Shown: positions 2,551-32,349 of the stretch, piece by piece
Layout of the letters: the number at the start of each line of letters is the position of its first letter
Position numbering within the stretch: the first letter of the stretch is position 1
Assembly: GCA_007693685.1 (NCBI GenBank)
Contig: REDB01000181.1
Location: 1 to 38,168 of the forward strand
Direction of reading: 5' to 3'
Length of the DNA: 38,168 nt
Source: Oceanospirillales bacterium
Lineage (GTDB): Bacteria > Pseudomonadota > Gammaproteobacteria > Pseudomonadales > Balneatricaceae
Made by a program: the position numbers and the translations under genes
Notes under the pieces: model-generated
Database searches by the model: none
Told to the model about the DNA's origin: nothing
The model's input: only the letters and a program-made list of their open reading frames with translations

Positions 2551-2554
2551 TCTC

Positions 2555-11163: not shown

Positions 11164-11222
11164 AGTGCAGGCTCCATTATTTTTTTTATGCAAAGAGGCT
11201 GTTTTAATTTAGGAATACGATG

Positions 11223-11795
11223 TTAACGAAACTGTGCGTGATACTCCTTGTTAGGTGCCATTTCTACTGCAAGGGCAATACGATTAGTCATATTGTAAAA
11301 ACCCACTAAGTTACAAATATCCCAAATTCCTTGGTCAGTGAAACCTACATTACGTAATGCTTGTGCATCATCAGGCGTCACTTCAGCAGGCAAACGAGTT
11401 AATCTAGAAGCATAGTCAAGCATGGCGCGTTGCCTTGGTGATAAGTTGGCGCTGCGATAGTTCATGACTAAATGTTCGCCTAGTTCAGGATCACCACTGT
11501 ATTCTCGAACAGCAGCACCATGAGCAACGAGGCAGTAAAAACACTTGTTGTCAGATGATACCACTACAGCAATCATTTCCCGTTCCAACAAACTCAGTTC
11601 ACTTTCTCCAAACATGAGTTGATTATAGAAACGTGAAAAGACATCAAGCTGTTCAAGATTTTGACTATAGGCTTTCAGTACATTGGGAATGAGTCCCAAC
11701 TTTTCCTGACACTTGTCAAAGTAACGTTGAACAGGCTCAGGTAAATCTGTGTAAGAGGGGATGGTTAGATCCAGTGCCACAACTTGATCACTCAT
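11223..11795 (-). CDS. AhpD-like peroxidase-related protein
   Basis: 190 residues of the carboxymuconolactone decarboxylase/AhpD fold, close to the peroxidase-related subfamily. The redox site is CFYCLVAHG (C85, C88, H92), preceded by the conserved acidic helix LLEREMIAVVVS. AhpD-type proteins reduce peroxides or disulfides with these two cysteines. The start (ATG 11795) lies inside the end of the HMG-CoA lyase gene with an 8-bp overlap; GGGAGG upstream supports it, and translation is probably coupled. Its place in the liu operon suggests protection against peroxide made during acyl-CoA oxidation or handling of a reactive intermediate, which is inference. It is not a known step of leucine breakdown. 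Confidence 0.85.
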   Translation of the reverse strand: MSDQVVALDLTIPSYTDLPEPVQRYFDKCQEKLGLIPNVLKAYSQNLEQLDVFSRFYNQLMFGESELSLLEREMIAVVVSSDNKCFYCLVAHGAAVREYSGDPELGEHLVMNYRSANLSPRQRAMLDYASRLTRLPAEVTPDDAQALRNVGFTDQGIWDICNLVGFYNMTNRIALAVEMAPNKEYHAQFR

Positions 11796-14693: not shown

Positions 14694-14698
14694 TGTTA

Positions 14699-15514
14699 TT
14701 ATTCTCCCGATTCCAGTGTGGACGACCAGTTTGGACGGCGTTTGTTCAGGAAAGCACTGAGTCCTTCCTGCCCCTCATCACTGACACGAATATCAGCGAT
14801 TCGCTGCGTCGTTTCATCGATAACAGCTTGGTTGATTGGCAGGTGACTAACGGCGAAAATCAATGATTTAGCCGCTTGCATGGCCTGAGGGCTATTTTGA
14901 TTAAGTGTTGCAATAAAGGCTTGCGCTGCAGCGGCAAGATCAGCCGAGCTTTCAACGACCTGATGAACCAAGCCAAACCCAAGAGCGGTTTCTGCATCAA
15001 ACACTTCTGCTGTTAAAAAATAGCGTCGTGCTTGGCGCTCACCAATAGCTCTGATGACGTAAGGACTGATCACAGCAGGAATTAAACCGATTTTAACTTC
15101 GCTTAGACAGAAACGTGCATCTTTACTAGCGATCACTAGGTCACAACACGCCGCTAAACCCACGGCTCCACCATAAGCAGCACCTTGAACAAGTCCAATT
15201 ACCGGTTTGCTAAAGTGATTCAGCTTATTCATTAACAGGGCAAGCTGACCTGCATCGGTAAGGTTTTCCGCATGGCTGTTATTCGCCATGCGTTTCATCC
15301 AGTTCAAGTCAGCACCCGCTGAGAAGTGTTTGCCTTCAGAACGTAATAGCAGCATTCGCAACCTTGGGTTCTGATCCGCTTCATCAAGTTTCTCGATGAG
15401 TGCTGCAATCATGCCATCGTCAAAAGCGTTATGCTTATCAGGTCGATTAAGAACCAGTTCAGCCACACCTTCATTAAGGTAGCGAAGCGAAACGCTTTCT
15501 GTAGTCACAGACAT
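14699..15514 (-). CDS. liuC: Methylglutaconyl-CoA hydratase (enoyl-CoA hydratase family)
   Basis: 271-residue crotonase-fold enzyme expected to hydrate 3-methylglutaconyl-CoA to HMG-CoA. The oxyanion-hole segments KHFSAGADLNWMKRM and GAAYGGAVGLAACCDLVIAS are clear, and the LSEVKIGLIPAVISPYV segment has the conserved glutamate region. Family membership is certain; specificity comes from its place between the two carboxylase subunit genes. AAGGAGA sits just before the ATG. It is 11 bases from the liuB stop. Confidence 0.93.
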   Translation of the reverse strand: MSVTTESVSLRYLNEGVAELVLNRPDKHNAFDDGMIAALIEKLDEADQNPRLRMLLLRSEGKHFSAGADLNWMKRMANNSHAENLTDAGQLALLMNKLNHFSKPVIGLVQGAAYGGAVGLAACCDLVIASKDARFCLSEVKIGLIPAVISPYVIRAIGERQARRYFLTAEVFDAETALGFGLVHQVVESSADLAAAAQAFIATLNQNSPQAMQAAKSLIFAVSHLPINQAVIDETTQRIADIRVSDEGQEGLSAFLNKRRPNWSSTLESGE

Positions 15515-15525
15515 GCTTCGTCTCC

Positions 15526-17133
15526 TTACATTCTGAACACGCCAAAGCGTGTTTCTTCGGTGGGGCGATTTAGAGTTGCTGAAAGACTTAATGCGATGAC
15601 TTCGCGGGTTTGCGCTGGATCAATCACACCATCATCCCACATGCGACCACTGGCATAATAAGGGTGACCTTGATGCTCATAAGTATCGACGATGGGTTGT
15701 TTAAAGTCGGCTTCTTCTTTTTCAGACCAGCTTTTGCCGTTCCGCTCCATGCTTTCGCGACGAACCGTTGCTAATACGCCAGCGGCTTGTTCACCACCCA
15801 TGACAGAGATACGTGCATTAGGCCACATCCACAGGAAGTCAGGATTATAGGCACGACCACACATACCGTAGTTACCAGCGCCAAAGCTACCACCGATTAA
15901 CACAGTCAGTTTAGGAACATTGGCACAGGCAACCGCCATCACCATTTTTGCACCATGTTTAGCAATCCCTTCCGCTTCATACTTGCGACCCACCATAAAA
16001 CCGGTGATATTTTGTAAGAAAAGTAGGGGGATATTGCGTTGGCAGCAGAGTTCGATAAAGTGTGCGCCTTTTTGTGCAGACTCGGTAAATAAAATGCCGT
16101 TGTTTGCGATAATGCCAACGGGATAGCCATGAATATGAGCAAATCCTGTGACTAGCGAAGCGCCGTAATACTGTTTGAATTCATCAAACTCAGATCCATC
16201 GACTAAGCGAGAGATCACTTCACGAACATCAAACGGCTTACGAAGATCAGTACCCACAATGCCGTAAAGCTCATCAGCATCATATAAAGGTGCTTTTGGC
16301 TGGGCTATGGCGATATCGAGTTTTTTCTTGCGGTTCAAGTTAGCGATACAGCGACGTGCAATCTGCAGCGCATGTTGATCGTTTTCAGCATAGTGATCAG
16401 CAACACCAGAGATCTTACAGTGCACGTCGGCACCGCCAAGATCCTCAGCACTCACTACTTCACCGGTGGCCGCTTTTACCAAAGGTGGGCCCGCCAAAAA
16501 GATGGTGCCTTGATTACGCACGATGATCGACTCATCTGCCATCGCTGGAACATAAGCGCCACCAGCTGTACATAGGCCCATAACTACTGCAATTTGAGGA
16601 ATCCCTTTTGCAGACATACGTGCCTGATTGTAAAAGATACGTCCAAAGTGATCGCGGTCTGGGAATACTTCATCTTGACGAGGAAGGTTGGCACCACCTG
16701 AATCTACAAGGTAGATACAGGGTAGGTGGTTTTGTTCAGCTATTTCTTGTGCACGCAGATGTTTTTTAACGGTTAGGGGATAATAGGTACCCCCTTTAAC
16801 CGTAGCATCATTGGCAATGATCATGCACTCAACACCGGAGACACGACCGATACCGGTAATGATTCCTGCTGCGGGTACATCTTCATCATAGACTTTGTAA
16901 GCAGCCAGTTGTGAAAGCTCTAGAAACGGAGAGCCATCGTCAATCAGGCGATTGATGCGCTCACGTGGTAACAATTTACCACGTGCTAGGTGTCTAGATT
17001 GATATTCAGCACCACCCCCTTGCTGAATCGTGGCGATTTTTTCTTTTAGATCAGTAACCGCAGCTGACATGGCATCTGCTTTGACCCTGAACTCATCAGA
17101 ACGGGCATTTATTTTTGTTTGCAGAATTGGCAT
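15526..17133 (-). CDS. liuB: Methylcrotonyl-CoA carboxylase, beta subunit
   Basis: 535-residue carboxyltransferase that moves CO2 from biotin on LiuD to 3-methylcrotonyl-CoA. The acyl-CoA-binding N-half ([34 protein letters not shown]) and the biotin-binding C-half ([36 protein letters not shown]) match the MCC beta family and its usual length. GGGAG lies 8 bases before the start. A geranyl-CoA carboxylase paralogue is the main alternative, but the neighbouring liuA, liuC and liuE make the leucine pathway much more likely. Confidence 0.96.
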
Positions 17134-17156
17134 GGTTATGCTCCCAGTGTAAAGCC

Positions 17157-18323
17157 TCAGTTATTTAGAAAAAGTTCGCGGCCTATCAACATGCGGCGAA
17201 TTTCTGAAGTTCCTGCACCTATTTCATAGAGTTTGGCGTCACGGAGGAGGCGGCCTGTTGGATACTCATTGATGTAACCGTTACCACCGAGCAATTGAAT
17301 CGCATCGAGGGCAATTTGAGTTGCCATTTCAGCTGAATATAGGATGACTCCAGCCGCATCTTTTCGAGTTGTTTCACCACGATCTGCTGACAGAGCCACC
17401 ATATAAACGTAAGACTTGGCAGCGTTCATGCGAGTGTACATATCTGCAAGTTTGCCCTGAACCAGTTCAAATTCGCCAATCGCTTTGCCAAATTGCTTTC
17501 TGTCACGAACGTAAGGAACAACAACATCCATCGCTGCTTGCATAATGCCAAGTGGGCCACCCGCTAGAACTAGACGTTCGTAATCCAGACCAGACATCAG
17601 AACCTTTACGCCACCGTTCAGCTCACCTAAGAGGTTTTCTTTAGGAACTTTGCAATCTTGGAAAACCAGTTCACAGGTGTTGGAGCCACGCATACCTAAT
17701 TTGTCGAGTTTCTGAGCTTGGGTGAATCCAGGGCTATCGCGTTCAACAATAAAAGCAGAGATACCTTTAGGACCTGCATGAAGATCTGTTTTGGCATAAA
17801 TGACATAGACATTCGCATCTGGACCGTTAGTGATCCACATCTTATTGCCATTCAGCACATAATGATCACCTGCATCACGAGCGCTTAGCTTCATGGATAC
17901 TACATCGGAACCTGCGTTTGGCTCAGACATTGCCAGTGCACCAATATGTTCCCCGGTGATCAGTTTAGGAAGGTATTTTTCTTTCTGTGCCTGGGTACCG
18001 TTACGGTTGATTTGGTTCACGCAAAGGTTGGAATGTGCGCCGTAAGAGAGGGCTACAGAAGCAGAGGCACGACTGAGTTCTTCCATGGCAATAACATGCG
18101 CAAGGTAGCCCATGCCAGAACCGCCAAACTCTTCGTCAGCCGTAATACCTAGCAGACCCATATCACCAAACTTTTTCCAAAGATCAGCAGGGAAGAGGTT
18201 AGCATGATCAATATCGGCTGCTCTTGGGGCAATCTCACTGGCAGCAAAGTTATTGATCTGTTGACGAAGCATGTCGATCGTTTCGCCTAAACCAAAATTT
18301 AATTCAGAGTATTGAGAGATCAT
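17157..18323 (-). CDS. liuA: Isovaleryl-CoA dehydrogenase
   Basis: FAD enzyme that oxidises isovaleryl-CoA to 3-methylcrotonyl-CoA and gives its electrons to the electron transfer flavoprotein, which is encoded in the divergent operon. The 388 residues have the acyl-CoA dehydrogenase N, middle ([27 protein letters not shown]) and C domains. The catalytic glutamate typical of isovaleryl-CoA dehydrogenases is visible in [15 protein letters not shown] (E249). The C-terminal FAD/dimer motif [13 protein letters not shown] and [17 protein letters not shown] are intact. AGGA lies 7 bases before the start. It follows liuR by 22 bases. Confidence 0.96.
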
Positions 18324-18345
18324 GTCTTATTCCTATTTGTTATTT

Positions 18346-18807
18346 TTAATGGAGTGATGGATCTGGATTAGTTGCCTGAATGGAGGGTTTGACCTCATCA
18401 GGGGATGACCCTTTTTTTGCCTTTAATTCTTGAAGTGCCGCTTCGCAACGAAGTTGAGCACTTTCTAATTCTATTTTCGCCATCTGAATGTCGTTGAGTT
18501 GTTGCTCTAATTGACGCTGCTTTTGACCTAACGTATCCAACATTTTGAGCAACTGACGCTCGCTACCACTTTCCGTTTCGTCCCATAGGTCGAAAAGTTC
18601 TTTTGACTCGGCTAACGAAAATCCCAGACGCTTGCCACGTAAAATTAATTTAAGTCTGACCCTGTCTTTAGAACTGTAGATGCGAGTCTGTCCTTTACGC
18701 TCTGGTCTAAGAAGTCCTTCATCCTCATAAAAACGAATGCTGCGAGTGGTAATGTCAAATTCGCTAGCTAGTTCGCTTATAGAGTAAGTTCTTTTTTTTA
18801 AGCTCAT
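18346..18807 (-). CDS. liuR: MerR-family regulator of branched-chain amino acid catabolism
   Basis: 153-residue DNA-binding regulator. The N-terminal MerR winged helix is clear: YSISELASEFDITTRSIRFYEDEGLLRPERKGQTRIY, here split as SISELASEFDITTRSIRFYE and following, then a dimerisation coiled coil at about 85-135 (LDTLGQKQRQLEQQLNDIQM). There is no metal-binding cysteine loop of the MerR/CueR type, so the effector is likely an organic or acyl-CoA ligand. It is the first gene of the liu operon, as LiuR is in many gamma- and betaproteobacteria. AGGA is 7 bases before the start. A likely operator lies in its own promoter region and another before the transporter operon. Confidence 0.93.
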   Translation of the reverse strand: MSLKKRTYSISELASEFDITTRSIRFYEDEGLLRPERKGQTRIYSSKDRVRLKLILRGKRLGFSLAESKELFDLWDETESGSERQLLKMLDTLGQKQRQLEQQLNDIQMAKIELESAQLRCEAALQELKAKKGSSPDEVKPSIQATNPDPSLH

Positions 18808-18833
18808 GGAGTATTCCTCATCATTGTCATTTG

Positions 18834-18862
18834 AGATTACTCAAAGTTAACGTTTACGTAAA
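18834..18862 (-). promoter_or_regulatory. Probable liu operon promoter
   Basis: On the reverse strand TTTACG (18862-18857) and TAATCT (18839-18834) are separated by 17 bases, a plausible sigma-70 promoter about 30 bases before the liuR start. The 18-bp candidate LiuR element covers the -35 hexamer and most of the spacer, a position usual for MerR-family proteins. The hexamers are only fair matches. Confidence 0.5.
18845..18862. promoter_or_regulatory. Candidate LiuR operator 1 (liu side)
   Basis: AGTTAACGTTTACGTAAA, nearly palindromic around ACGT cores. It matches the element at 19024-19041 in 16 of 18 positions and lies over the putative liuR promoter. ACGT-rich imperfect palindromes of this kind are what comparative work has described for LiuR; the protein assignment here is inferred from position and the adjacent liuR gene. 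Confidence 0.65.
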
Positions 18863-18994
18863 GTGCTTTTTTGTGTTATTTTTAAACAATGTTTAGTGGG
18901 TAGGTTGGTTGCTAATTAGATAACTAACTAATTTAAATATAAAAATAACAATTTTATAAAGAATTTTACCGCCCACTAGACCAAAGTATTACTT

Positions 18995-19006
18995 GTAAAG
19001 CTTTAC
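18995..19006. repeat. 12-bp perfect palindrome GTAAAGCTTTAC
   Basis: GTAAAG/CTTTAC lies 18 bases before operator 2, between the divergent liu and transporter operons. It continues into CTTTACGTTTCG, which partly resembles the operator half-site, so it may be a weaker regulator site or part of the transporter promoter. No function can be assigned from sequence alone. Confidence 0.35.
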
Positions 19007-19023
19007 GTTTCGTTGCTAATTTA

Positions 19024-19041
19024 AGTTGACGCTTACGTAAA
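19024..19041. promoter_or_regulatory. Candidate LiuR operator 2 (transporter-etf side)
   Basis: AGTTGACGCTTACGTAAA, 16 of 18 positions identical to the element at 18845-18862. It sits about 50 bases before the first ATPase gene of the forward operon. TTGACG inside it could be a -35 box, but I see no convincing -10 at the right distance. The pair suggests that LiuR controls both divergent operons. Confidence 0.6.
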
Positions 19042-19092
19042 TGTAATGCAAGCAGGCTGGTCTACAACAATAAAAAGAGGCTGCACAATCTT

Positions 19093-19866
19093 ATGAGTTC
19101 TGAATTCGTTCTAGAAACCCGAGATCTTGTGAAAGAGTTTAAGGGGTTCACAGCCGTTGATAAGGTTAATCTAAAAGTTCGTCGAGGCCACATCCATGCC
19201 TTAATTGGCCCCAATGGTGCGGGAAAGACGACGGTATTTAACCTATTAACTAAGTTTCTGATTCCCACTAGAGGTCAGATTCTTTTCAATGAGCAAGATA
19301 TCACTTCGTTGAAGCCTGCTGCGATTGCACGCAAAGGTATCATTCGATCCTTTCAGATATCGGCAGTTTTCCCTCACATGACCGCTTTGGAAAATGTCAG
19401 AGTGGCCTTGCAGCGTTTTGAAGGGAATAGCTTCCATTTTTGGAAAAGTGAAAAAGCGCTCAATAAACTCAACGATCGCGCCTACGCTTTGCTTGAATCT
19501 GTGGGGCTAGAAAGCTTTGCAGATACAGTCACGGTAGAGATGTCTTATGGTCGTAAACGTGCTCTTGAGTTGGCGACTACCTTAGCCATGGAACCAGAGT
19601 TGGTTTTATTGGATGAGCCAACGCAGGGTATGGGGCACGAAGATGTTGATCGTGTCGTTGAGTTGATTCGTCAAGCCGCTGTCGGGCGCACCATTCTTAT
19701 GGTTGAGCATAACCTCAGTGTCGTCAGCAAATTGTGTGACCAGATCACCGTGTTAACGCGTGGTGCTGTTCTAACAGAAGGCGACTATCAAACGGTTTCT
19801 CAAAACCCTCAGGTTAAAGAAGCCTATATGGGTAGCGAAGCCAATGTTTTAGAGGGGGCTCACTAA
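19093..19866 (+). CDS. livG: Branched-chain-type ABC transporter ATPase (LivG family)
   Basis: 257-residue nucleotide-binding subunit. Walker A GPNGAGKTT (39-47) is intact, the signature is MSYGRKRALELA as usual for LivG in place of LSGGQ, Walker B is LVLLDEPTQGMG, and the switch histidine is in ILMVEHNLS. It should pair with the LivF-like ATPase to drive import through the LivH/LivM permeases. It is the first gene of the forward operon, which has an order with both ATPases before the binding protein. The stop overlaps the livF start by one base (TAATG), implying coupled translation. Confidence 0.93.
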   Translation: MSSEFVLETRDLVKEFKGFTAVDKVNLKVRRGHIHALIGPNGAGKTTVFNLLTKFLIPTRGQILFNEQDITSLKPAAIARKGIIRSFQISAVFPHMTALENVRVALQRFEGNSFHFWKSEKALNKLNDRAYALLESVGLESFADTVTVEMSYGRKRALELATTLAMEPELVLLDEPTQGMGHEDVDRVVELIRQAAVGRTILMVEHNLSVVSKLCDQITVLTRGAVLTEGDYQTVSQNPQVKEAYMGSEANVLEGAH

Positions 19867-20588
19867 TGGCGGATGCAATCAAACCCAACTATGAACAGTT
19901 GAAGATTACTGACCTTCATGCCTTTTATGGTGAGTCTCATATTCTCCATGGCATCGATATGCTTGTACGTCGTGGAGAATTAGTGACTTTACTTGGACGT
20001 AACGGTGCCGGTCGAAGCACAACATTAAAGTCCATTATGAACATGGTTGGGAATCGAACCGGTTCGATCATGATTAATGGGCGCGAAACGATAACCACTC
20101 AAGCTCATCATATTGCGCGCTTAGGTGTCGGTTACTGTCCGGAAGAGCGTGGTATTTTTTCCAGTTTGAACGTGGAAGAAAATTTAATGTTACCTCCCAC
20201 CGTTCGTAGCGGTGGTATGAGCTTAGATGAAATCTATGACATGTTTCCCAACCTTTATGAACGCCGTTTCAGCCAAGGAACGCGTCTATCCGGTGGCGAA
20301 CAGCAGATGCTAGCAATGGCTCGGATTCTTAGAACCGGAGCCAATATGCTGCTTCTTGATGAAATTACTGAAGGGTTAGCTCCTGTTATTGTTCAAAAGT
20401 TAGCAGAAGTACTCATCAAACTTAAAGAGAAGGGCTTAACTATTGTGTTGGTTGAGCAGAACTTCCGGTTTGCGGCCCCTTTAGCAGATCGTCATTACTT
20501 GATGGAGCATGGGCAGATTGTTGAAGAGATTCAAGCATCTGAACTTAGCCAGAAGCAAGAGTTACTGAATACCTATTTAGGCGTCTAG
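19866..20588 (+). CDS. livF: Branched-chain-type ABC transporter ATPase (LivF family) with altered Walker A
   Basis: 240-residue second ATPase of the importer. Signature LSGGEQQMLAMARIL, Walker B LLLDEITEGLAP and the LivF-type LVEQNF switch are present. The Walker A loop reads GRNGAGRST: the invariant lysine is arginine (R50, codon CGA at 20013-20015). Going from a lysine codon to CGA needs two base changes, so one miscalled base would not explain it. ATP binding here may be weakened, with the LivG subunit providing the standard site; some relatives of this subfamily may share the change. GGGGG before the overlapping ATG serves as ribosome binding site. Confidence 0.92.
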   Translation: MADAIKPNYEQLKITDLHAFYGESHILHGIDMLVRRGELVTLLGRNGAGRSTTLKSIMNMVGNRTGSIMINGRETITTQAHHIARLGVGYCPEERGIFSSLNVEENLMLPPTVRSGGMSLDEIYDMFPNLYERRFSQGTRLSGGEQQMLAMARILRTGANMLLLDEITEGLAPVIVQKLAEVLIKLKEKGLTIVLVEQNFRFAAPLADRHYLMEHGQIVEEIQASELSQKQELLNTYLGV

Positions 20589-20654
20589 CCTGTAACAAAA
20601 CGTGTTTGACGTTAACAACAAAAATAAAAGCCAATATGGCAATGGAGAAACACT

Positions 20655-21866
20655 ATGAAAACAATGAAAAAACTCCTCACTGCAGCGGTTGCATCAACGA
20701 TGATTGCAAGTGCTGCTCAAGCCGCAATCTCTGATAATGAAGTACGTATTGGCTACCTGGCAGATATGTCCGGTACCTATCGTGATCTGGCAGGTCCCAA
20801 TGGTCTGACAGCCTTGAGAATGGCGGTTGAGGATTTTGGTGGTCAAGTCAACGGTGCCCCCATCCGTGTTGTGAGTGCCGATGACCGCAATAGTCCCGAT
20901 GTAGCGTCCAGTACTGTTCGTCAGTGGATTGAGGCTGATGGTGTGGATATGGTTGCGGGTATGGTTGCCACCTCAGTGGCGCTTGCTGCAGTTAATATCA
21001 TCGAGCGTGCTGATAAGTTAGCGATTATCTCGGGTTCTGCGGCATCCAGTATCACCAACGAACATTGCACCCCTAACCATATTCATTATGTTTATGATAC
21101 TTATCCCTTAGCCAATGGTACGGCAAAAGCAGTGGTAGATGAGGGCGGTAAATCCTGGTTTATCTTAACCGCAGACTATGCATTTGGTCATGCGCTGGAA
21201 GCGGATATTGAAAGAGTTGTGACTGCGAATGGTGGCACTGTTGTACAGAAGGTTCGTCATCCTTTCCCAACCGGAGATTTCTCTTCGTTCATTCTTCAAG
21301 CGCAAAGCTCAGGAGCTGATGTTGTCGGTCTAGCTAATGCTGGTTCTGATACCATCAATGCGATCACCACTGCGGGTGAGTTTGGTTTGACTCAATCAGG
21401 TCAGTCCATAGCCGCCATGGTGATGTTCTTAAATGACGTACATGCTCTGGGTGTAGAAGCGGCCCAGGGTATTCAGTTAACCACCGGTTGGTACTGGGAC
21501 ATGAATGATGAAACCCGTGCATGGGCTGATCGCTTTATGGAAAGAACCGGTGTTCGTCCAGGCATGGTTCATGCAGGTATCTACTCAAGTACTATGCATT
21601 ATCTTAATGCGATTCAAGCCACTGGAACGGATGATACGCAAACGGTTCGTCGTCACATGATGGATACACCGATCAACGATATGTTCGCGACCAACGGCAT
21701 TATTCGTGAAGACGGTCGTATGGTGCATGATATGTATCTTGCTCAGGTAAAAACACCAGCTGAATCTACCAACGAATGGGATTTGTATAACATCGTTCGT
21801 ACCATTCCTGCTGATGAAGCTTACCGTCCACTCTCTGAAAGTGTATGCAGACTGGTTAACAACTAA
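20655..21866 (+). CDS. ABC transporter substrate-binding protein, branched-chain amino acid type
   Basis: 403-residue periplasmic protein of the type I (Leu/Ile/Val-like, Peripla_BP_6) fold. Signal peptide MKKLLTAAVASTMIASAAQA is followed by the mature start ISDNEVRIGYLADMSG. Recognisable stretches are DDRNSPDVASSTVRQWIEAD, SGSAASSITNEHC and TADYAFGHALEADIERVV. Two cysteines (in NEHCTPNH and SVCRLVNN) could form a disulfide. GGAG lies 7 bases before the ATG. Ligand is uncertain: gene context favours branched-chain amino acids or related short acids, but homologues in this superfamily also bind aromatic acids, amides and urea. A GC-rich hairpin directly after the gene probably raises its mRNA level relative to the permeases. 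Confidence 0.92.
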   Translation: MKTMKKLLTAAVASTMIASAAQAAISDNEVRIGYLADMSGTYRDLAGPNGLTALRMAVEDFGGQVNGAPIRVVSADDRNSPDVASSTVRQWIEADGVDMVAGMVATSVALAAVNIIERADKLAIISGSAASSITNEHCTPNHIHYVYDTYPLANGTAKAVVDEGGKSWFILTADYAFGHALEADIERVVTANGGTVVQKVRHPFPTGDFSSFILQAQSSGADVVGLANAGSDTINAITTAGEFGLTQSGQSIAAMVMFLNDVHALGVEAAQGIQLTTGWYWDMNDETRAWADRFMERTGVRPGMVHAGIYSSTMHYLNAIQATGTDDTQTVRRHMMDTPINDMFATNGIIREDGRMVHDMYLAQVKTPAESTNEWDLYNIVRTIPADEAYRPLSESVCRLVNN

Positions 21867-21874
21867 TCTGTGTG

Positions 21875-21896
21875 GCGCGCTCAGTTATGAGCGCGC
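21875..21896 (+). terminator. Intra-operon hairpin after the binding-protein gene
   Basis: Perfect 8-bp stem GCGCGCTC (21875-21882) / GAGCGCGC (21889-21896) with a 6-base loop, followed by TCTTT. It lies between the binding-protein stop and the livH start. The T-run is short, so it is more likely a partial terminator or a 3' stabilising structure than the end of the operon. Confidence 0.65.
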
Positions 21897-21942
21897 TCTT
21901 TAGATGTTTGGCTGAAAGTTATTTCTAACTGGGATATTCATT

Positions 21943-22830
21943 ATGAGCATGATATTCGGAGTACCTATTGCTGTACTCTCAGGTCAGCTTTTGCTTGGAC
22001 TGATTAATGGCGCATTTTACGCCTTATTAAGTTTAGGTTTGGCCGTTATATTCGGTTTGCTTAAGATTATTAACTTTGCCCACGGTGCATTTTATATGCT
22101 GGGTGCTCTTTGCACAGTGGTTTTATTTAATACGCTTGGCATTAATTATTGGGTGGCTTTATTTCTCGCACCTTTAATCGTCGGTACGCTTGGAATATTG
22201 ATTGAATATTTCTTACTCCGAAAAATCGCTAATGAAGATCACCTCTACAGTTTGCTGCTGACCTTTGGGGTGGCACTGGTTATTCAAGGGGTTCTCACCA
22301 ATATCTACGGTGTGTCTGGTATGCGTTATGCCATACCCGAGGTGTTTAGAGGGGGCGTGAACCTTGGCTTTATGTTCCTGCCTTACTACCGCGCTTGGGT
22401 AATCGTGGCGGCGTTAGTGGTGTGTTTTGGAACCTGGTTTATGATCGAAAAAACCAAGCTAGGTTCCTATCTCCGTGCCGGTACCGAAAACTCTAAACTG
22501 ATGCAGGCGTTTGGTATCAACGTACCGCTGCTGGTGAGTTTAACTTATGGCTTTGGCGTTATGTTGGCTGCCTTTGCCGGTGTGCTTGCCGCTCCTATTT
22601 ACTCTGTTACCCCTGTGATGGGTGGAAACATTTTAATCATCGTATTTGCGGTGGTAGTGATCGGTGGCATGGGATCAATCGTTGGATCTATCTTTACAGG
22701 TCTAGCAATGGGCATCATTGAAGGTCTGACTAAAGTGTTTTATCCCGAAGCATCCAGTACCGTTATTTTCTTAGTGATGGTTATTGTCTTGTTGGTGCGT
22801 CCAGCAGGCTTATTTGGAAAGGAGGCATAG
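21943..22830 (+). CDS. livH: Branched-chain-type ABC transporter permease (LivH family)
   Basis: 295-residue inner-membrane permease with about eight hydrophobic segments. Family landmarks are LLGLINGAFYALLSLGLAVI near the N-terminus, INFAHGAFYMLGA, and the ATPase-contact region with GTENSKLMQAFGINV, which corresponds to the EAA-like loop. It ends with the usual LVRPAGLFGKEA. GGGA lies upstream of the ATG. It should dimerise with LivM to form the channel. Confidence 0.94.
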   Translation: MSMIFGVPIAVLSGQLLLGLINGAFYALLSLGLAVIFGLLKIINFAHGAFYMLGALCTVVLFNTLGINYWVALFLAPLIVGTLGILIEYFLLRKIANEDHLYSLLLTFGVALVIQGVLTNIYGVSGMRYAIPEVFRGGVNLGFMFLPYYRAWVIVAALVVCFGTWFMIEKTKLGSYLRAGTENSKLMQAFGINVPLLVSLTYGFGVMLAAFAGVLAAPIYSVTPVMGGNILIIVFAVVVIGGMGSIVGSIFTGLAMGIIEGLTKVFYPEASSTVIFLVMVIVLLVRPAGLFGKEA

Positions 22831-22832
22831 TC

Positions 22833-23828
22833 ATGTCGACTTCAGCAATAAAAACTCATTCTCGCAAAGCCTATTTGGAATCTAAGCAAAGAGCGGCGCG
22901 CCGTAATATGATCCTTTACGGGGTATTAATTGCCTTTGCTTTAGTTGCACCGGTGATATTTTACCCAGTCTTTTTAATGAAGGTGCTGTGTTTTGCACTA
23001 TTCGCCATAGCGTTTAATCTATTACTGGGGTATGTCGGTTTATTGTCATTTGGCCATGCCGCTTTTTTGGCAACCGGTGGATATACCACAGGATATTTAC
23101 TGACTACTTATTCCGGCTTTAGCCCTGAAATGGCGATTATCATCGCTACTGCAGCGGCAACCTTGCTCGGTTTTGCTTTTGGTGTGATCGCAATTCGTCG
23201 TCAGGGCATTTACTTTGCGATGATTACTCTGGCGTTGGCCCAGCTAGTGTTTTTCTTTTACTTACAGTCGCCCTTTACCCGTGGTGAAGACGGTATGCAT
23301 GGTATTCCAAGAGGAACATTACTAGGTTTTATCGATCTGCAAAATAACTTAGCCATGTACTATTTTGTGCTTGCTGTGTTTATTTTTGGCTTTGCGCTGG
23401 TTCAGCGTATTGTTCATTCTCCTTATGGGCATGTCTTAAAAGCCATTAAAGAGAACGAGCCACGTGCTATCTCATTGGGTTATAACGTTGATCGCTACAA
23501 GTTAGTTGCGTTCACTATCTCCGCTGCTCTTGCGGGTCTAGCCGGTTCGGTCAAAACCATCGTTTTCCAATTAGCCTCATTGACTGATGCGCATTGGCAC
23601 ATGTCTGGTGAAGTGATTCTGATGACATTGGTCGGCGGTGTAGGAACACTACTTGGTCCTGTTATCGGTGCAGCTTTTGTTATCAGTCTTGAGCATCAAT
23701 TGGCGCAGAGCCCATTGGGTGATTGGGTGGACGTTATACTGGGTGTAATTTTTATTCTGTGTGTATTGATGTTTAGAGCTGGTTTTGTCGGTGAATTCCA
23801 GAAATTCTATAAAAAGAACTTTAAATAA
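22833..23828 (+). CDS. livM: Branched-chain-type ABC transporter permease (LivM family)
   Basis: 331-residue inner-membrane permease. The charged cytoplasmic N-terminus is followed by multiple hydrophobic helices; LivM landmarks are NLLLGYVGLLSFGHAAF, FAMITLALAQLVFFF and SPYGHVLKAIKENEPRAISL, the cytoplasmic loop that contacts the ATPase. The ribosome binding site AAGGAGG lies inside the end of livH, only 2 bases separate the genes, and coupling is expected. Length and topology fit the family. Confidence 0.94.
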   Translation: MSTSAIKTHSRKAYLESKQRAARRNMILYGVLIAFALVAPVIFYPVFLMKVLCFALFAIAFNLLLGYVGLLSFGHAAFLATGGYTTGYLLTTYSGFSPEMAIIIATAAATLLGFAFGVIAIRRQGIYFAMITLALAQLVFFFYLQSPFTRGEDGMHGIPRGTLLGFIDLQNNLAMYYFVLAVFIFGFALVQRIVHSPYGHVLKAIKENEPRAISLGYNVDRYKLVAFTISAALAGLAGSVKTIVFQLASLTDAHWHMSGEVILMTLVGGVGTLLGPVIGAAFVISLEHQLAQSPLGDWVDVILGVIFILCVLMFRAGFVGEFQKFYKKNFK

Positions 23829-23859
23829 TCTTGAGCATTATGTTGGGTGAGGAATGACG

Positions 23860-24612
23860 ATGAAGTTACTCGTCGCGGTAAAAAGAGTCATCGATTACAA
23901 CGTAAAGGTTAGAGTTAAGTCAGATCGTACCGATGTTGACTTAGCTAATGTGAAAATGTCGCTTAATCCTTTTTGTGAAATAGCGGTGGAAGAAGCGGTT
24001 AGGTTAAAAGAGAAGGGTGTAGCTTCTGAAGTGCTAGTGGTTTCTGTTGGTAGCAAAGCCTGCCAAGAACAACTTCGCACTGCTTTAGCTTTGGGTGCAG
24101 ATAGAGCCATTCAGGTTGAAGGCCCTGAGAATCCAGATTCTCTCTCGGTAGCAAGAATTCTTGCAGCGATAGTGAAGCGTGAGGAACCGGGTTTGATCTT
24201 ATTAGGCAAGCAATCTATCGACTCGGATAATAATCAAACCGGTCAGATGCTAGCAGCACTGATAGATCGTCCCCAAGCGACATTTATCTCTGAGATACAT
24301 CTCGAAGGCGATCAATTAACGGCTACGCGAGAAGTGGATGGCGGCTTACAAACTCTTAAGTTGACCTTACCTGCGGTGGTAACCACGGATTTGCGGCTGA
24401 ATGAACCTCGCTATGCATCTTTGCCTAACATTATGAAAGCGAAGAAAAAACCGCTAGATGTGATGACGGCGGACGAACTGGGCGTCACGATCGAAAATCG
24501 TATTAATCTGGTTAGCGTTGAACCACCTGCTGAACGTAGTGCGGGTATTAAGGTGTCCTCTGTAACAGAGTTGGTCGAAAAACTTCGCCAAGAAGCTAAG
24601 GTGATCGCATGA
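23860..24612 (+). CDS. etfB: Electron transfer flavoprotein, beta subunit
   Basis: Small ETF subunit, 250 residues, which binds AMP and forms the docking surface for acyl-CoA dehydrogenases. The N-terminus [20 protein letters not shown] and segments [16 protein letters not shown] and [19 protein letters not shown] are typical. An ATG at 23854 has GAGGA immediately before it with no room to initiate; the ATG at 23860 is 6 bases from GAGGA and gives the standard N-terminus, so I chose it. Its stop overlaps the etfA start as ATGA. Placed with liu genes across the divergent promoter, it probably accepts electrons from LiuA. Confidence 0.96.
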
Positions 24613-25538
24613 GTATTTTGATTTTAGCTGAACATGATAATCAAACCCTAAAACCTGTGACCTTGAGCGTTATTGCTGCGGCTAAAGCCATAGGTGGTGA
24701 TATTACTGTGTTGGTTGCGGGTCAGGGTTGTGCTCAAGTCGCTGAACAGGTTGCTCAGGCAGAGGGTGTCACTAAGGTGCTATTAGCAGACTCAGCCAGT
24801 TATCAGCATCAACTCGCTGAAAATATTGCGCCCTTAATGGTTGAGCAAGCTTCTGGTTCAACTCATCTATTAGCTGCTGCTACCACCACAGGCAAAAATA
24901 TTTTTCCTCGAGTTGCTGCGTTATTAGGTGTCAATCAGATCTCTGAAGTCTTGGCGGTAGAGTCTTCTAATCGATTCAAGCGAGCTATTTATGCAGGTAA
25001 TGCCATTGCCACGGTGGAGTCATCTGAAGCTATTCAGGTAATGACCATTCGCGGTACAGCCTTTGATGCGGTTTCAGCAACCGGAAATAGTGCTGAAGTG
25101 ATTAAGCTTTCAAGTGAATTTAATAGTTCAGCTATTAGCTTTATCAGCGAAGCGCTGGCGGAGTCTGATCGCCCTGAATTGACCGCCGCAAAAGTAGTGG
25201 TATCAGGAGGGCGTGGTGTTGCCAGTGCGGAAAATTTTGAGATGCTATATCGTCTTGCGGATAAACTCGGTGCAGCAGTGGGCGCCTCAAGAGCAGCTGT
25301 TGATGCTGGTTATGTTCCTAACGATATGCAGGTCGGTCAAACAGGTAAATTGGTTGCCCCAGAGCTTTATATCGCCATAGGTATCTCTGGTGCGATTCAG
25401 CATTTAGCGGGCATGAAAGATTCAAAAGTGATCGTCGCTATCAACAAGGATGAAGAAGCGCCTATTTTTCAGGTTGCTGATTACGGCTTAGTCGCTGATC
25501 TTTTTGAGGCAGTTCCAGAATTGGAAAAAACGGTTTGA
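24609..25538 (+). CDS. etfA: Electron transfer flavoprotein, alpha subunit
   Basis: 309-residue large ETF subunit that holds FAD and passes electrons to ETF-ubiquinone oxidoreductase. The C-terminal FAD domain is clear: [54 protein letters not shown] and [12 protein letters not shown], then the conserved end [20 protein letters not shown]. No ETF-QO gene lies in the window. Start codon overlaps the etfB stop by 4 bases. Confidence 0.96.
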
Positions 25539-26191: not shown

Positions 26192-26198
26192 AGGCATT

Positions 26199-27088: not shown

Positions 27089-28918
27089 TCAAAACTGAGC
27101 TTTAGGGTTTTTAGGATAATAATGATCAGCAACACGAGCTTGTCTACTAAATTCTCGGGTGTTTTTGTATGGCATTTTCATAAAGCCAGAGACACCCAAA
27201 CCCTCTATGTCGGGCAGCGATTGAACAATACGTTGCAGGGCTGCGGTAAACTCTGCCTCTTTGCTGGGATCTAGCAATACATAGTCGTTATGTATTTTCA
27301 AATGCTTCGGTAGCACCTCAAATATAATCAAGCCAGTATGGCGAATCTCATTAAGCAGAGCGATTTCACGCATAATGCTGTCGGGCAGTTGCAATAGCTC
27401 ATCCGGATCTTGACCGTCTTCAAAATAGGAATGGTTTCGACTGCTTTCTTCATGAAGGGGAGCTTGGGTAACTTCAAAGGGAATCTTCATCTCAGTAGGG
27501 GGAGTAAAGGGCAGGTTTTCATTGTCACGCTCTAGGTGAAGCGTATTTTTAGCATCAAATAAGCAGCACTTAAAAACACCTTCCCGATGAATAGCTCGTG
27601 CCAAGGTAATCATGGTGTTGACTGCGTGAGTGAAGGCGTCTTTTAGGTCTGGATTATGAAGGTTGAGGCTGGAGTCGATGAAAATATCATCATCTTCCCA
27701 ACGTATGGCTAATCCACCCAGTACCGGATATTTACCCAATCGGCTAACGGCACACAAAAAGGCGCGTTCAGTGCTACCCATGCCGTGCATGAAATTCTTG
27801 TAATACTTTTCCAGTTCCACGTCATCCACATCGATTAACAACGATGGATCTAAGTGCCCTTCACGAAGAAAGCTTTTTCGTGAACTATAGACCACGGTTT
27901 CCATCTGCTCCTGCCCTTGAAATACCCAAATCGGGATCAAGGGCTTTGGCGTTGATTTATCCAGTTCAGGTACAACCCATCTCTTCATAAAGGGCATTTG
28001 CGAGATTAAATAGTTTCCAGCTTGACGCTTTTCCTGCTCATTACCCGTTAATAAGGTTTGTAGGGTGATTGCAAAGGCTTTAGGTAGTCCTAGCGAAGTC
28101 GCTGGAATAGCATCATAGCCATAGCGACAGGATTGTCCTGATGCTAGAGCATAGAGGGTTCCTGCTAATCCTTGTTCATCAAAACGGGGAGAGCTAAGTC
28201 CGCCGTTTAACTGCTCTTCACCAATAAAGTAGACATCACCGAGTCGAGCATTAGTGCTGTGCAGATCTTCACTGAAAAAGCTTAGTCCCGGAGCAATCAC
28301 CGGTTGGTTTTCACTATCTCGTTGCGCGAAGACACTGGAACCCCAGTCAATCAGTTTGACGCTTTCATCAACAGGATTAAAAACAATATTGGAGGGTTTG
28401 ATATCACCATGAACGATAGGAGCAGGTTGATCATCTTGCTTAAACGATCTAAGAGAAGTTAGCACTTCAACCAGTTGAGCAGCAATTTTAAGTATAAGAC
28501 GAGGTGAAAGGGGGCCTTGTTGAATCGAGTAAGCTTCAAGATCCAAACCGGGCGCTCGTTCCATCATCAATACGGATTGTCGTGAAATACGGGTATATTC
28601 GCTGACCGCAGGTATTCCCTTGTGTATTAATTGGCTTTGCATCCAGGCTTCATCTTCAAGTCGATCTTGAACCGCTTGAGGTAAATTGATGCGTGAGAAC
28701 TTGAACACATAGTCAAACTCTTCAGCCGATTTTCCAGCAAATACAAACCCGTAAGCGCCTTTGCCGATGAATTCTATATCGGAAAAGCCCAGCAATCTGA
28801 GCTGATCCATACAGAGCTGCACCCAGTCTTTAATCTTTTGAGCATCTTCATGACTCATTAGATAGATCGACTGTTCCTCATTGATATAGAACTGTTGCAG
28901 CAACGGGCGCTTTATCAT
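27089..28918 (-). CDS. Hanks-type protein kinase-like protein coupled to the bkd operon
   Basis: 609 residues from the ATG at 28918, whose A is the last base of the E2 stop codon (TAATG); further upstream starts (ATG 28969, TTG 28978) would overlap E2 and lack a ribosome binding site. The first ~300 residues form a protein kinase fold: glycine loop GKGAYGFVFAG (52-62), lysine in YVFKFSR (K73), catalytic loop HGDIKPSNIVF (D172, N177), metal-binding DWG (D191) in place of DFG, and the helix-F motif DEQGLAGTLYALASG. All catalytic residues are present, so activity is likely. The remaining ~300 residues match no domain I recognise, and I see no membrane segment. Neighbours encode the branched-chain 2-oxoacid dehydrogenase, making it a candidate regulator of that complex, which is inference. 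Confidence 0.85.
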   Translation of the reverse strand: MIKRPLLQQFYINEEQSIYLMSHEDAQKIKDWVQLCMDQLRLLGFSDIEFIGKGAYGFVFAGKSAEEFDYVFKFSRINLPQAVQDRLEDEAWMQSQLIHKGIPAVSEYTRISRQSVLMMERAPGLDLEAYSIQQGPLSPRLILKIAAQLVEVLTSLRSFKQDDQPAPIVHGDIKPSNIVFNPVDESVKLIDWGSSVFAQRDSENQPVIAPGLSFFSEDLHSTNARLGDVYFIGEEQLNGGLSSPRFDEQGLAGTLYALASGQSCRYGYDAIPATSLGLPKAFAITLQTLLTGNEQEKRQAGNYLISQMPFMKRWVVPELDKSTPKPLIPIWVFQGQEQMETVVYSSRKSFLREGHLDPSLLIDVDDVELEKYYKNFMHGMGSTERAFLCAVSRLGKYPVLGGLAIRWEDDDIFIDSSLNLHNPDLKDAFTHAVNTMITLARAIHREGVFKCCLFDAKNTLHLERDNENLPFTPPTEMKIPFEVTQAPLHEESSRNHSYFEDGQDPDELLQLPDSIMREIALLNEIRHTGLIIFEVLPKHLKIHNDYVLLDPSKEAEFTAALQRIVQSLPDIEGLGVSGFMKMPYKNTREFSRQARVADHYYPKNPKAQF

Positions 28919-30162
28919 TAGCGAAGCTTTGTCAGCATAGTCAGTGGATTCTCCAGATAGGCTTTCCATGTGTTGCAAAAGCGTGCCATGCTGGCGCCAT
29001 CAATAATGCGATGATCGCCTGACCAACTGATCTGCATGATTTTATGTGCGCTCACTTGGCCATCTTCATCAAAGCGGGGCAGAGTTTGTATCTTGCCCAA
29101 TGCGACAATAGCGACCTCAGGTTTGTTGATAATAGGAGTAGCGACGGTACCTCCTATGGCGCCAATGTTGGATAGGGTAATGGTGCCTCCTTTCATCTGT
29201 TGAGAGGTTAGCTTGCCTTCTCTGGCGGCGTCTATCAGTTCATTTAACTCCGCAGTGATCTCCATCAGGTTTAAATGCTGTACTCCTTTAATATTGGGTA
29301 CGAGCAGACCTGAAGGGGTATCCACAGCAAAACCTATGTTGTGATCCTCTTGGTAGATGATCTCAGTACAATCCTCGTTAACGCGACTATTCAGTAATGG
29401 GTGTTGCTGAAGCGCCAGTGAGAGTGCTTTGATAAACAAAGGCATCAGGCTTAGACGTAATCCTTCAGCTTCAAAACTGGGTTTGAGGGTTTGGCGTGTC
29501 TTTTCTAGAAGCGTAACATCGAGTTCATCAGAATAGGTGAAATGTGGAATCGTGTTGGCAGAATCCAACATCTGTTTCGCCATTAGCGCTTTGATACCTC
29601 GGATGCTTACGCTGCGATCCTTGCTATCTTTTGTGTCTACCAAGCATGACCTCTGTACCCTGGTATTTTCGTCCTGAAGCTGACGTTGACTTGGGTTCTG
29701 TAAGTCTTCTTTGTAAATACGTCCATTCTTGCCACTGCCCTTGATGGTGTTAAGGTCTAGCTTCATCTCTCTGGCTAAACGCCTGACTGCTGGACTGGCA
29801 ATGGGTTTTTTCGCTATCTCTGACGAGCTTGTTGTTTTGTGATTATCAGCAGGCAGCACTTCAGTTGCTGTTTCTGTTTGGCTTTTTGTCTGTGCCTGTG
29901 GGTCTAATTGGGATGGTTGATCAGCTTCAATCTCAATTTCAAAAAGAGGCTGATGAACTTTAGCAATATCACCTTGTTGATAATAGAGTTTGCTGATCAC
30001 ACCGTTATACATCGAGGTGATTTCAACCAGCGCTTTATCGGTCATCACGTCTGCAACAGGTTGATCTTCTACAACCGTGTCACCTTCATTGATGCGCCAT
30101 TCAACCAGTTCACACTCAACAATGCCTTCACCAATATCAGGCAGAATAAAATCAATTTTCAT
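28918..30162 (-). CDS. bkdB: Branched-chain 2-oxoacid dehydrogenase E2, dihydrolipoamide acyltransferase
   Basis: 414-residue core of the complex; moves the branched acyl group from lipoate to CoA. An N-terminal lipoyl domain has the modified lysine in VMTDKALVEI (K43). A charged linker (about 80-125) leads to the E1/E3-binding domain ASPAVRRLAREMKLDLNTIK, then the catalytic domain ending in SWSGDHRIIDGASM with the HxxxDG active site. One lipoyl domain and this length are usual for BkdB. GGAG lies 6 bases before the ATG. The stop overlaps the kinase start. No E3 (lipoamide dehydrogenase) gene is present, so E3 must be shared with another complex. Confidence 0.93.
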   Translation of the reverse strand: MKIDFILPDIGEGIVECELVEWRINEGDTVVEDQPVADVMTDKALVEITSMYNGVISKLYYQQGDIAKVHQPLFEIEIEADQPSQLDPQAQTKSQTETATEVLPADNHKTTSSSEIAKKPIASPAVRRLAREMKLDLNTIKGSGKNGRIYKEDLQNPSQRQLQDENTRVQRSCLVDTKDSKDRSVSIRGIKALMAKQMLDSANTIPHFTYSDELDVTLLEKTRQTLKPSFEAEGLRLSLMPLFIKALSLALQQHPLLNSRVNEDCTEIIYQEDHNIGFAVDTPSGLLVPNIKGVQHLNLMEITAELNELIDAAREGKLTSQQMKGGTITLSNIGAIGGTVATPIINKPEVAIVALGKIQTLPRFDEDGQVSAHKIMQISWSGDHRIIDGASMARFCNTWKAYLENPLTMLTKLR

Positions 30163-30188
30163 GGGTTACTCCAAACTGAATCGGTCAA

Positions 30189-31166
30189 TTAGTAATGAAC
30201 ACTGGTGAGAATCGCTTCATAGGTTTTCAGGTGATCTGGCATATATTCCTTCTCTAAGGCGAGTGGGAAGGGGGTATCCAAGCCTGTAACCCTGATGATG
30301 GGCGATTCCAAATGTAAAAAGCAGGTCTCTTGAATGCTGGCGGCAATTTCAGCACCAAAGCCAGAGGTTTTGGGTGCTTCATGATTGATAATCAATCGAC
30401 CTGTCTTTTTCACTGAGTTGGCAACAGTGTCTCTATCCCATGGCAGCAATGTGCGTAAATCGATCAGTTCACAGGAAATGCCATCTTTTTCTGCAAGGTC
30501 AGCAGCTTTTTCAATCGCTTCCATTTGCGCTCCCCAGGCAAGCAGGGTGATATCGCTACCTTCACGAATGACCTCGGCTTTACCCAGTGGAAGTTGATAA
30601 TCTTCGTCAGGAACTTCACCGACAGAAGCGCGGTAGATTCTTTTAGGCTCGAAAAATATCACTGGATTTGGATCGCGTATCGCGGCAAGCAGTAAACCTT
30701 TGGCTTGTTCAGGGTTTCGAGGAACCACCACTTTCAAACCGGGAGTATGCGTAAAATAAGCTTCGGGGGATTGGGAGTGATAATGACCTCCATTGATTCC
30801 ACCACCATAAGGAGTCCGTATAGTGATCCCGCCAACATTGAACTCATTTCCTGAGCGGTAACGAAACTTAGCGGTTTCATTAACGATTTGATCAAATGCA
30901 GGAAAGATATAATCAGCAAACTGAATTTCAGCAATGGCTGTCATGCCTTGAGCGGCTAAGCCATTGGCAAAACCAACAATGCCTTGTTCGGTTAGGGGTG
31001 TATTAAAGCAGCGATGTTTGCCAAATTTTTCTTGTAGATGACTGGTCGCTCTAAATACGCCACCGAAATGACCTACATCCTCACCAAAGCATAAGGCTTT
31101 GGAATCGCTAGAAAGGGCAATCTCCAGTGCGTTATTGATTGCTTGAAGCAGGTTCATCTTACTCAT
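30189..31166 (-). CDS. bkdA2: Branched-chain 2-oxoacid dehydrogenase E1, beta subunit
   Basis: 325-residue beta subunit of the thiamine-dependent decarboxylase. Typical stretches are [49 protein letters not shown] and the C-terminal [17 protein letters not shown]. The ATG at 31166 is chosen because GGGAGG is about 7 bases upstream; a GTG one codon earlier is less likely. It overlaps the E1-alpha stop by 8 bases. The E1/E2 set could in principle act on pyruvate, but the E1-alpha length and the surrounding genes favour branched-chain 2-oxoacids. Confidence 0.93.
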
Positions 31167-32349
31167 CACCTAGCCTCCCAGCTGATTTAGGATAGGCATC
31201 TGGATACTTTCTTAAGTGCTTGATCAATGCATCCTGTTGCTCTTTCAAGTGCCAAGGTAAGGTGTCATAAACATCGGTAAATAAGTCGTTAAGAGGAGGT
31301 GGTGGCACTTTTTCAGCTTTTTTCATCGCCGCCATAATGGCATCCCGATGAAACTGCTTGCGTTGTGTGTCTTGGCTTTCGTCCCACCATTGTTGCTGTA
31401 TCAACCAATTTTTTAAGCGCAGAACAGGGCATTTGGCTCGCCATGTGTCTTCTTCAGATTTATTTCTATAACCGCTAGGATCATCCGAGCTGGAATGAGC
31501 ACCTAAGCGATAGGTCATGGCTTCAATCAAGACTGGCTGATGCTGTTCAACTGCCAGTTTGCGAGCTTGTTGCGTTGCTTTCAAGACTGCAAATACATCG
31601 TTGCCATCAACACGAATCGTTTTAAGACCGTAACCTATTCCACGCGGTGCTATACCATCACCGGCATATTGTTCATGTGCTGGAGTAGAGATGGCATAAC
31701 CATTGTTGCGACAGAAAAAGATCACCGGTACTTTGAAAACGCCTGCCATATTCAATGCGGCATGAAAGTCACCTTCCGAGGCAGCGCCTTCACCGAAAAA
31801 GCACAATACACAGTTAGGTTTTTGCTGAGCTTTAAGTGCAAAAGCATAGCCTGTTGCATGGGGGAGTTGTGTGCCTAACGTTGAAGATACAGTGATGTAA
31901 TGTAACTCACTGGAACCATAATGAATGGGCATTTGACGCCCTTTACCCAAGTCTTTTTCGTTAGAAAACAACTGGTTCATGAATTGATCTGGAGTAAAAC
32001 CTCGAAAGGCTAATGCGCCTTGTTCGCGGTATTGCGCCATGATCATATCGTCATCAGCAAGGGCCGCCGTGCTGCCAATATCTGCCGCTTCTTCACCCGT
32101 TTCAGTCATGTAAAAACTGATACGTCCTTGACGTTGTGAGGCGAGCAAGCGTTCATCTAGGGCTCGAATAAACAGAAAAGTATCGTAGATTTTTAGAGCA
32201 AGCGTTTGATCAATTTCAGGAAGAGATGCACCGGGATAAAGGGTACCATCTTCACGAAGGATACGTAGGGTTGGGATATGTAGGGATGTAGCATCAAAAA
32301 ATTTAGGCTCGTGCACGATCAGTGCCGCCGTTTCGCGTTTATCAGTCAT
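31159..32349 (-). CDS. bkdA1: Branched-chain 2-oxoacid dehydrogenase E1, alpha subunit
   Basis: 396-residue alpha subunit that decarboxylates 2-oxoisocaproate, 2-oxoisovalerate and 2-oxo-3-methylvalerate with thiamine diphosphate. The cofactor motif runs from [17 protein letters not shown] to the [10 protein letters not shown] asparagines. The loop [16 protein letters not shown] (serines 286-288) matches the phosphorylation loop of the mammalian enzyme, with S286 at the regulatory serine position. AAGG lies 8 bases before the ATG. First gene of the bkdA1-bkdA2-bkdB-kinase operon; a tandem inverted-repeat element lies 51-80 bases upstream. Confidence 0.94.

Follow-up and report, generated by a model that had tools for sequence, protein, structure and literature searches.

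A branched-chain 2-oxoacid dehydrogenase (BCKDH) operon in an Oceanospirillales bacterium includes a gene for a 609-residue protein that is predicted to be a protein kinase. The operon lies on contig REDB01000181.1 of assembly GCA_007693685.1; the whole stretch analysed, 38,168 nucleotides read on the forward strand, is referred to here as the window. Many marine and salt-loving bacteria with a mitochondria-like BCKDH complex also possess such a kinase, few exceptions having been seen, and it probably switches the complex, as an unrelated kinase does in human mitochondria. On balance we favor the reading that the protein is a protein kinase dedicated to regulating a gammaproteobacterial BCKDH of the mitochondrial type and acts on the complex, because its gene stands in the operon, its kinase residues are invariant, its predicted fold is that of a kinase, and kinase and complex co-occur almost exactly even when their genes lie far apart. 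The kinase-BCKDH pair is real, conserved, and apparently undescribed; neither the kinase nor phosphorylation of a bacterial BCKDH was described in the titles and abstract openings found among the open-licence articles of PMC.

Operon layout and identity of the complex

The genes for E1alpha (31159..32349), E1beta (30189..31169), E2 (28918..30162), and the kinase-fold protein (27089..28918; identified from the listing of open reading frames (ORFs), Pfam, and the family alignment, with its ATG at 28918) follow one another on the minus strand, and their arrangement as an operon is solid. The E2 stop codon and the kinase ATG overlap by a single base (TAATG, shared base 28918). From this start position the sequence-only reading had concluded that the kinase is made with the complex; the overlap and the operon stand, and translational coupling of the kinase to E2 may be proposed. 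E2 and kinase genes on one strand were compared at 152 loci (automatic start calls, certain genomes present twice); the overlap was seen only at L005 and L193, both from the window's own genome, and a gap of 0-30 nt separated the two genes at 83 of the 152 loci.

Among solved structures, E1alpha matched the BCKDH alpha chain 1dtw_A best of the list (E 2.9e-122, 411.6 bits), with 209.9 bits for 1qs0_A, a 2-oxoisovalerate dehydrogenase alpha chain, and E1beta matched the BCKDH beta chain 1dtw_B best of the list (E 2.1e-132). We take 1dtw to be the human BCKDH and 1qs0 to be the Pseudomonas enzyme. From these sequence matches, E1 is read as a BCKDH of the mitochondrial type. By Pfam and PDB sequence matches, the 414-aa E2 is a dihydrolipoyl acyltransferase with lipoyl, E3-binding, and catalytic domains; its closest solved relative is the pyruvate dehydrogenase E2 3duf_I over the whole length (E 7.7e-77), followed by the BCKDH E2 core 2ihw over the catalytic domain (E 4.9e-75). 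The BCKDH reading of the operon is supported by the genes at 9475..25538 (strand unspecified), where domain scans identified catabolic genes presumed to be of the leucine/isovalerate type, genes for electron-transfer flavoprotein, and an ABC transporter for branched-chain amino acids.

E2 length varies within the family, the ORFs at L214, L218, L224, and L228 being 515-566 aa long as compared to 414 aa at 28918-30162 of the window; a second lipoyl domain is probable in these longer forms.

Domains of the kinase

Pfam placed a Pkinase domain on residues 47-260 (E 1.3e-17, 64.5 bits against a curated cut-off of 31.7), and the match together with the model fold delimits a protein-kinase domain at residues 40-315 (27974..28801, minus strand). 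K73 (the VAIK-type lysine), H170-G-D172, N177 (with D172 the catalytic Asp/Asn), and D191-W-G (D191 binding Mg) were found where the sequence-only reading had placed them in claiming a full Hanks-type residue set. They are invariant in 139/139 homologue rows, as are the glycine-rich loop (G52/54/57) and the alphaC glutamates E88 and E90. These rows, among them that of the window, represent 124 distinct sequences; they exclude the incomplete L015 and L055 as well as L052, which was filtered out presumably because of a stop in its reading, as it contains no N. The D-x-K-x-x-N catalytic loop, the lysine of which marks Ser/Thr protein kinases, is likewise invariant across the family alignment. Atypical motifs are HGD for HRD and DWG for DFG; at the end of the activation segment no APE motif was recognisable by eye in the family alignment, and residues 213-243 are poorly modelled (pLDDT <50). 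In the structural model (pLDDT 76.5), residues ~5-315 matched Aurora A, AMPK, and PknB at Z ~18 by VIA (Aurora A 8c1k: Z 18.7, rmsd 3.2, 240 aligned residues; PknB 2fum: Z 18.1), and the top 50 fold matches listed were protein kinases at Z ~18. The protein is thereby predicted to have a Hanks-like protein-kinase fold.

Preceding the kinase domain is an N-terminal segment (residues 1-39; 28802..28918, minus strand) in which the family alignment revealed the conserved stretch FYI.EEQSIYL.SH; F10, Y11, I12, E14, Q16, S17, Y19, and L20 are unchanged in the 33 aligned kinase sequences, from which L055 was left out. The five Pfam-A matches of the kinase up to E 1 include neither the BCDHK_Adom3 and GHKL families nor AceK, and no PASTA domain appears among its Pfam matches up to the same threshold. 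This absence and the Hanks-like fold bear out the earlier view that the kinase is unrelated to the GHKL type, so that regulation of this kind would aptly be called "convergent". The same genome has another three Pkinase matches, of which two exceed the cut-off, so the bkd-linked kinase is not its sole kinase. No copy of the kinase was found in the PLSDB plasmid collection at E 1e-30.

Residues 316-609 (294 residues; 27092..27973, minus strand) form a separate, conserved domain that was delimited from the model and belongs to no known family. Modelled alone (pLDDT 81.8), it consists of two similar helix-strand-strand-helix-strand-strand units. Searches with this domain gave no Pfam match for the window's protein. 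Nothing significant was obtained among PDB sequences, where the top match had E 0.18, or among PDB folds, where Foldseek reached E 0.42 and VIA Z 4.0 at best, in agreement with the statement of the sequence-only reading that the ~300-residue C-terminal part could not be assigned. A Roadblock/LC7-like reading of the repeats, based on the order of helices and strands only, was rejected as being without support from Pfam, Foldseek, or VIA, and so was an internal duplication, the signal for which was weak (hhalign E 0.0022, probability 12.9%, with five controls at 0.11-0.4).

Co-occurrence of the kinase and the close E1alpha

A collection of genome contigs contained 301 confirmed relatives of the kinase, of which the best 80, close relatives only, were kept. 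The nearest named homologues among these 80 are from Nitrincola (83% identical), and the marine and halophilic genera in which the family occurs include Halomonas, Marinobacter, Oceanospirillum, and Marinomonas. The kinase gene stands downstream of E1alpha-E1beta-E2 on the same strand in 76/80; the genomes of the four unlinked kinases (Pokkaliibacter and three Marinospirillum) have elsewhere an E1alpha with 69-74% identity to the window's.

The presence of both genes was then compared in three overlapping whole-genome surveys, covering 96 relatives, 390 genomes of the order, and 398 genomes of the phylum, all within a single phylum, Pseudomonadota, as judged from the named homologues. E1alpha sequences fell into two classes that are clearly apart, close (E <=1e-130) and distant (1e-83 or weaker). 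Among the relatives, the kinase (full-length orthologues and the broken-up copy of G002) was present in 21/96 genomes and the close E1alpha in the identical 21; the other ten of the 31 genomes listed gave weak kinase matches only (E 1e-9 to 5e-6). In the phylum sample, the profile of the kinase C-terminal domain was found in 29/398 genomes and the close E1alpha in the identical 29. The order survey yielded the kinase in 50/390 and the close E1alpha in 53/390, with 49 genomes having both, one the kinase only, and four the E1alpha only. The union of the surveys comprises 82 genomes with both genes, one with the kinase only (G258), and four with the close E1alpha only. A distant E1alpha alone, unaccompanied by any kinase match, was seen in 62/398 genomes of the phylum (E <=1e-55) and 10/390 of the order (E <=1e-60), and 17/96 relatives had only a distant E1alpha and no full-length kinase (E <=1e-50). 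The two genes also change together within genera: G004, G005, G009 (84% complete), and G027 have neither, and G058 is the sole genome of four in its genus with both. Both the gene order and the nearly exact co-occurrence support a specific tie of the kinase to BCKDH, as the sequence-only reading implied.

At L015 (G002) and L055 (Nitrincola sp. A-D6), the kinase and E1alpha/E2 matches are broken or partial in draft assemblies, probably reflecting sequence quality.

Genomes with the kinase and the complex apart

Kinase and E1alpha lie within 7 kb on one contig in 66 of the 82 genomes with both. In G333 they are on two contigs, with a piece of E2 beside the kinase, and this genome was taken as linked (67/82). 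The genes are apart in the remaining 15/82 genomes (G015; G220, G241, G261, G318, G336, G403, G420; G631, G654, G702, G727, G737, G749, G766); no bkd gene occurs around the kinase in any of them, and some of the pairs are on different contigs. The three Marinospirillum genomes, which are outside the 82-genome count, also have the genes apart. In an E1alpha tree (87 rows, quick method), the close class formed one clade with support 99, on which the unlinked state required 5 changes by parsimony and at least 3 by starred branches. Retention of both genes in the 15 unlinked genomes and their repeated separation on the tree indicate that linkage alone fails to explain the pairing. The neighbors of 18 unlinked kinase loci included no single other partner common to all.

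One family (L215:7832-12062, L221:7158-11265, L228:7185-11337) has a methyltransferase-like gene, the kinase, and then TesB-like and PaaY-like genes; these names were given by eye, PaaY by tblastn.

Proposed role, target site, and alternative explanations

BCKDH commits branched-chain amino acids to breakdown. According to the proposed mechanism, the kinase would be produced together with the BCKDH complex, and its kinase domain would phosphorylate one of the components, the most plausible being E1alpha in the vicinity of the active-site loop. Phosphorylation would lower the flux when branched-chain oxoacids should be spared, and the C-terminal domain may dock the kinase on the complex or sense a metabolite. 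Protein phosphorylation, a substrate within the complex, and the direction of the effect are what we infer here.

Several observations weigh against this reading. In NCBIfam, both E1 chains score best with models labelled pyruvate dehydrogenase E1, every one of which stays under its cut-off. Four genomes (G200, G400, G421, G432) have a close E1alpha without the kinase, and in G258, which has the kinase, the sole E1alpha match is distant and full of stops. Co-occurrence is partly a matter of shared descent and joint transfer of the linked block, and the counts are uncorrected for relatedness. In the four relatives without the kinase, E1alpha, E1beta, and E2 showed no clear loosening compared to their kinase-bearing sisters; E1alpha positions 223 and 335 were the only ones that two kinase-less rows had changed and every kinase-bearing sister had kept. 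No PP2C_2 phosphatase gene was found in the window's own genome (control positive in 7/14; other phosphatase families were not searched), which leaves reversal unexplained; a reset by an unrelated phosphatase or, in analogy to AceK, by the C-terminal domain is possible but unsupported. A further Pfam family, APH (small-molecule phosphotransferases), also passes its cut-off on the kinase (26 vs 23.2 bits). Finally, the serines of the E1alpha loop are kept in all kinase-less E1alphas compared, both close (4/4) and distant (30/30).

In G258, the locus L159:7952-9766 holds an open kinase gene, as called without the conserved N-terminal segment and without adjoining bkd genes, and is perhaps a decaying orphan.

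The loop in question, a candidate target, comprises E1alpha residues 280-295 (31465..31512, minus strand); these 16 residues include S286 and S288, as the sequence-only reading had described, and align with the 1dtw loop. Where the kinase is present, both serines are invariant in all 118 E1alpha rows, which represent 115 distinct sequences. The stop-ridden distant E1alpha of G258 (L242) and L176, from the same genome as L156, were dropped before the serine counts and the constraint comparison; in the first loop alignment, L242 was retained as one of 31 "far" rows. Since the serines are equally kept without the kinase and show no covariation with it, their conservation is no argument for phosphorylation, and the loop, which had been offered as evidence for control by the kinase, was rejected as a diagnostic of such regulation. 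For the loop argument, this is one of the outcomes that the sequence-only reading had itself named as refuting. Ser292 of human E1alpha, presumably the first serine of the loop aligned with S286 (by the alignment and the numbering), provides the analogy by which the loop may be the phosphorylation site, a possibility that we consider rather unlikely. BCKDK inhibits E1alpha via phosphorylation at Ser292, according to excerpts of PMC8872256.

The alternative that survives best is a dedicated BCKDH kinase with a target other than the loop, namely E2, E1beta, E1alpha at a different site, or a protein by which the complex is controlled, such as one for assembly or lipoylation or a regulator. It is consistent with the missing covariation of the loop and with a genetic tie that spans the whole operon; however, the alignments of E1alpha, E1beta, and E2 contain no Ser/Thr that follows the presence of the kinase either, as E1alpha S156 and S191, which mark the close subfamily, are kept in its kinase-less members. 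We regard this alternative as doubtful, although it deserves serious attention. Considerably less probable is a small-molecule kinase, acting for instance on a cofactor or a CoA- or oxoacid-derived ligand that BCKDH requires, or a docking protein with no catalytic activity. The APH match, HGD in place of HRD, the unrecognisable APE, and a C-terminal domain that could bind a metabolite would suit these options, but the Pkinase score far exceeds that of APH, which was rejected as best family on this ground, the D-x-K-x-x-N loop is invariant, the 50 best fold matches listed are protein kinases, and the invariant catalytic residues argue against an idle protein. Least probable is a passive operon passenger with another cellular job that rides with bkd by linkage and descent. 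In its favor, joint gain and loss would be expected from the 67/82 linked genomes, and G258 keeps an orphan kinase; against it, both genes are retained in the 15 unlinked genomes, their separation recurs on the tree, and kinase and close E1alpha occupy the identical 29 genomes of the phylum sample.

Kinase-less operons and Lrp-type regulators

In the E1alpha tree, the E1alphas of the kinase-less G200, G400, and G432 nest among kinase-bearing ones, and that of G421 branches near the base. An Lrp/AsnC-type regulator gene adjoins E1alpha in the operons of G200, G400, and G432 (L155:5017-5511, L156:7860-8339, L158:5540-6019). For G421 no Lrp match was obtained, but its contig ends 1.2 kb upstream of E1alpha. 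Of 96 kinase-bearing loci, 93 had 1.5 kb or more of sequence upstream and 3 fell short of this; an Lrp gene was found beside E1alpha in 3/93, and these loci (L178, L179, L181) belong to the same clade as the kinase-less operons. In a set of 20 other loci, mostly E1alphas of unlinked genomes (25 further had too little sequence), 17 were without an Lrp gene and 3 had one (L176, the second locus of G400, and L167 and L241, both of G333). Such a gene also adjoins 4 of 10 distant bkd loci. The Lrp genes of the clade are of two kinds, ~35% mutually identical, one in L155/L181 and the other in the rest, pointing to one or two acquisitions. The pattern is consistent with transcriptional control having taken the place of enzyme-level control, with few events behind it.

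A bolder version of the preferred reading is put forward only tentatively: a self-contained bacterial control unit for BCKDH of the mitochondrial type, evolved independently of the mitochondrial BDK and consisting of a Hanks-like kinase and a C-terminal sensor, docking, or resetting domain of unseen fold, which may be obligately paired with the complex, and the kinase of which could be lost where an Lrp-type regulator stands beside bkd, exchanging enzyme-level for gene-level control.

Other features of the window

The alpha/beta-hydrolase ORF at 26109-27044 has its listed GTG start inside the PaaY gene (83-base overlap), and its true start is probably further in. A protein with an LPD1 (large polyvalent protein-associated) domain is encoded at 6742-7518 amid metabolic genes. 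At 145-6475, genes for a CHASE-PAS-GGDEF protein and a PAS-GGDEF-EAL protein with a CZB-like zinc-binding domain lie end to end on opposite strands.

Relation to known systems and significance

To our knowledge, kinase control of BCKDH is known only from eukaryotic mitochondria. The mitochondrial BCKDH kinase (BDK/BCKDK, of the GHKL type) resembles the proposed bacterial system in being a dedicated kinase of a homologous BCKDH, and differs from it by fold, the bacterial protein being Hanks-like and free of BCDHK_Adom3 or GHKL matches. In excerpts of PMC10412597, BDK is stated to dock on the E2 lipoyl domain. The bacterial Hanks-type kinases PknB, Stk1, and StkP have the catalytic core and fold in common with the BCKDH-linked kinase, whereas the latter is distinguished by HGD, DWG, an atypical activation segment without a recognisable APE, the absence of a PASTA match, and, as its co-occurrence suggests, a tie to one partner complex. 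The aceK gene sits in the operon of its pathway. AceK is a bacterial bifunctional isocitrate dehydrogenase kinase/phosphatase acting on one metabolic enzyme, according to excerpts of PMC9138534. The BCKDH-linked kinase differs in having no AceK Pfam match and is not known to have phosphatase activity. Bacterial BCKDH of the Pseudomonas type has the Lrp-type regulator BkdR. Its gene order, E1alpha-E1beta-E2, is the same in 10/10 distant loci read; the distant E1alphas are 38-43% identical in the order survey and come without the kinase, 4 of the 10 loci having the adjoining Lrp-type gene noted above.

If the proposed role is true, the same control point would have been invented twice with unrelated kinases. 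An orphan bacterial kinase would have its substrate assigned, its C-terminal domain would be a new one to solve, and these bacteria would offer a tractable model of BCKDH control in which natural losses are already present.

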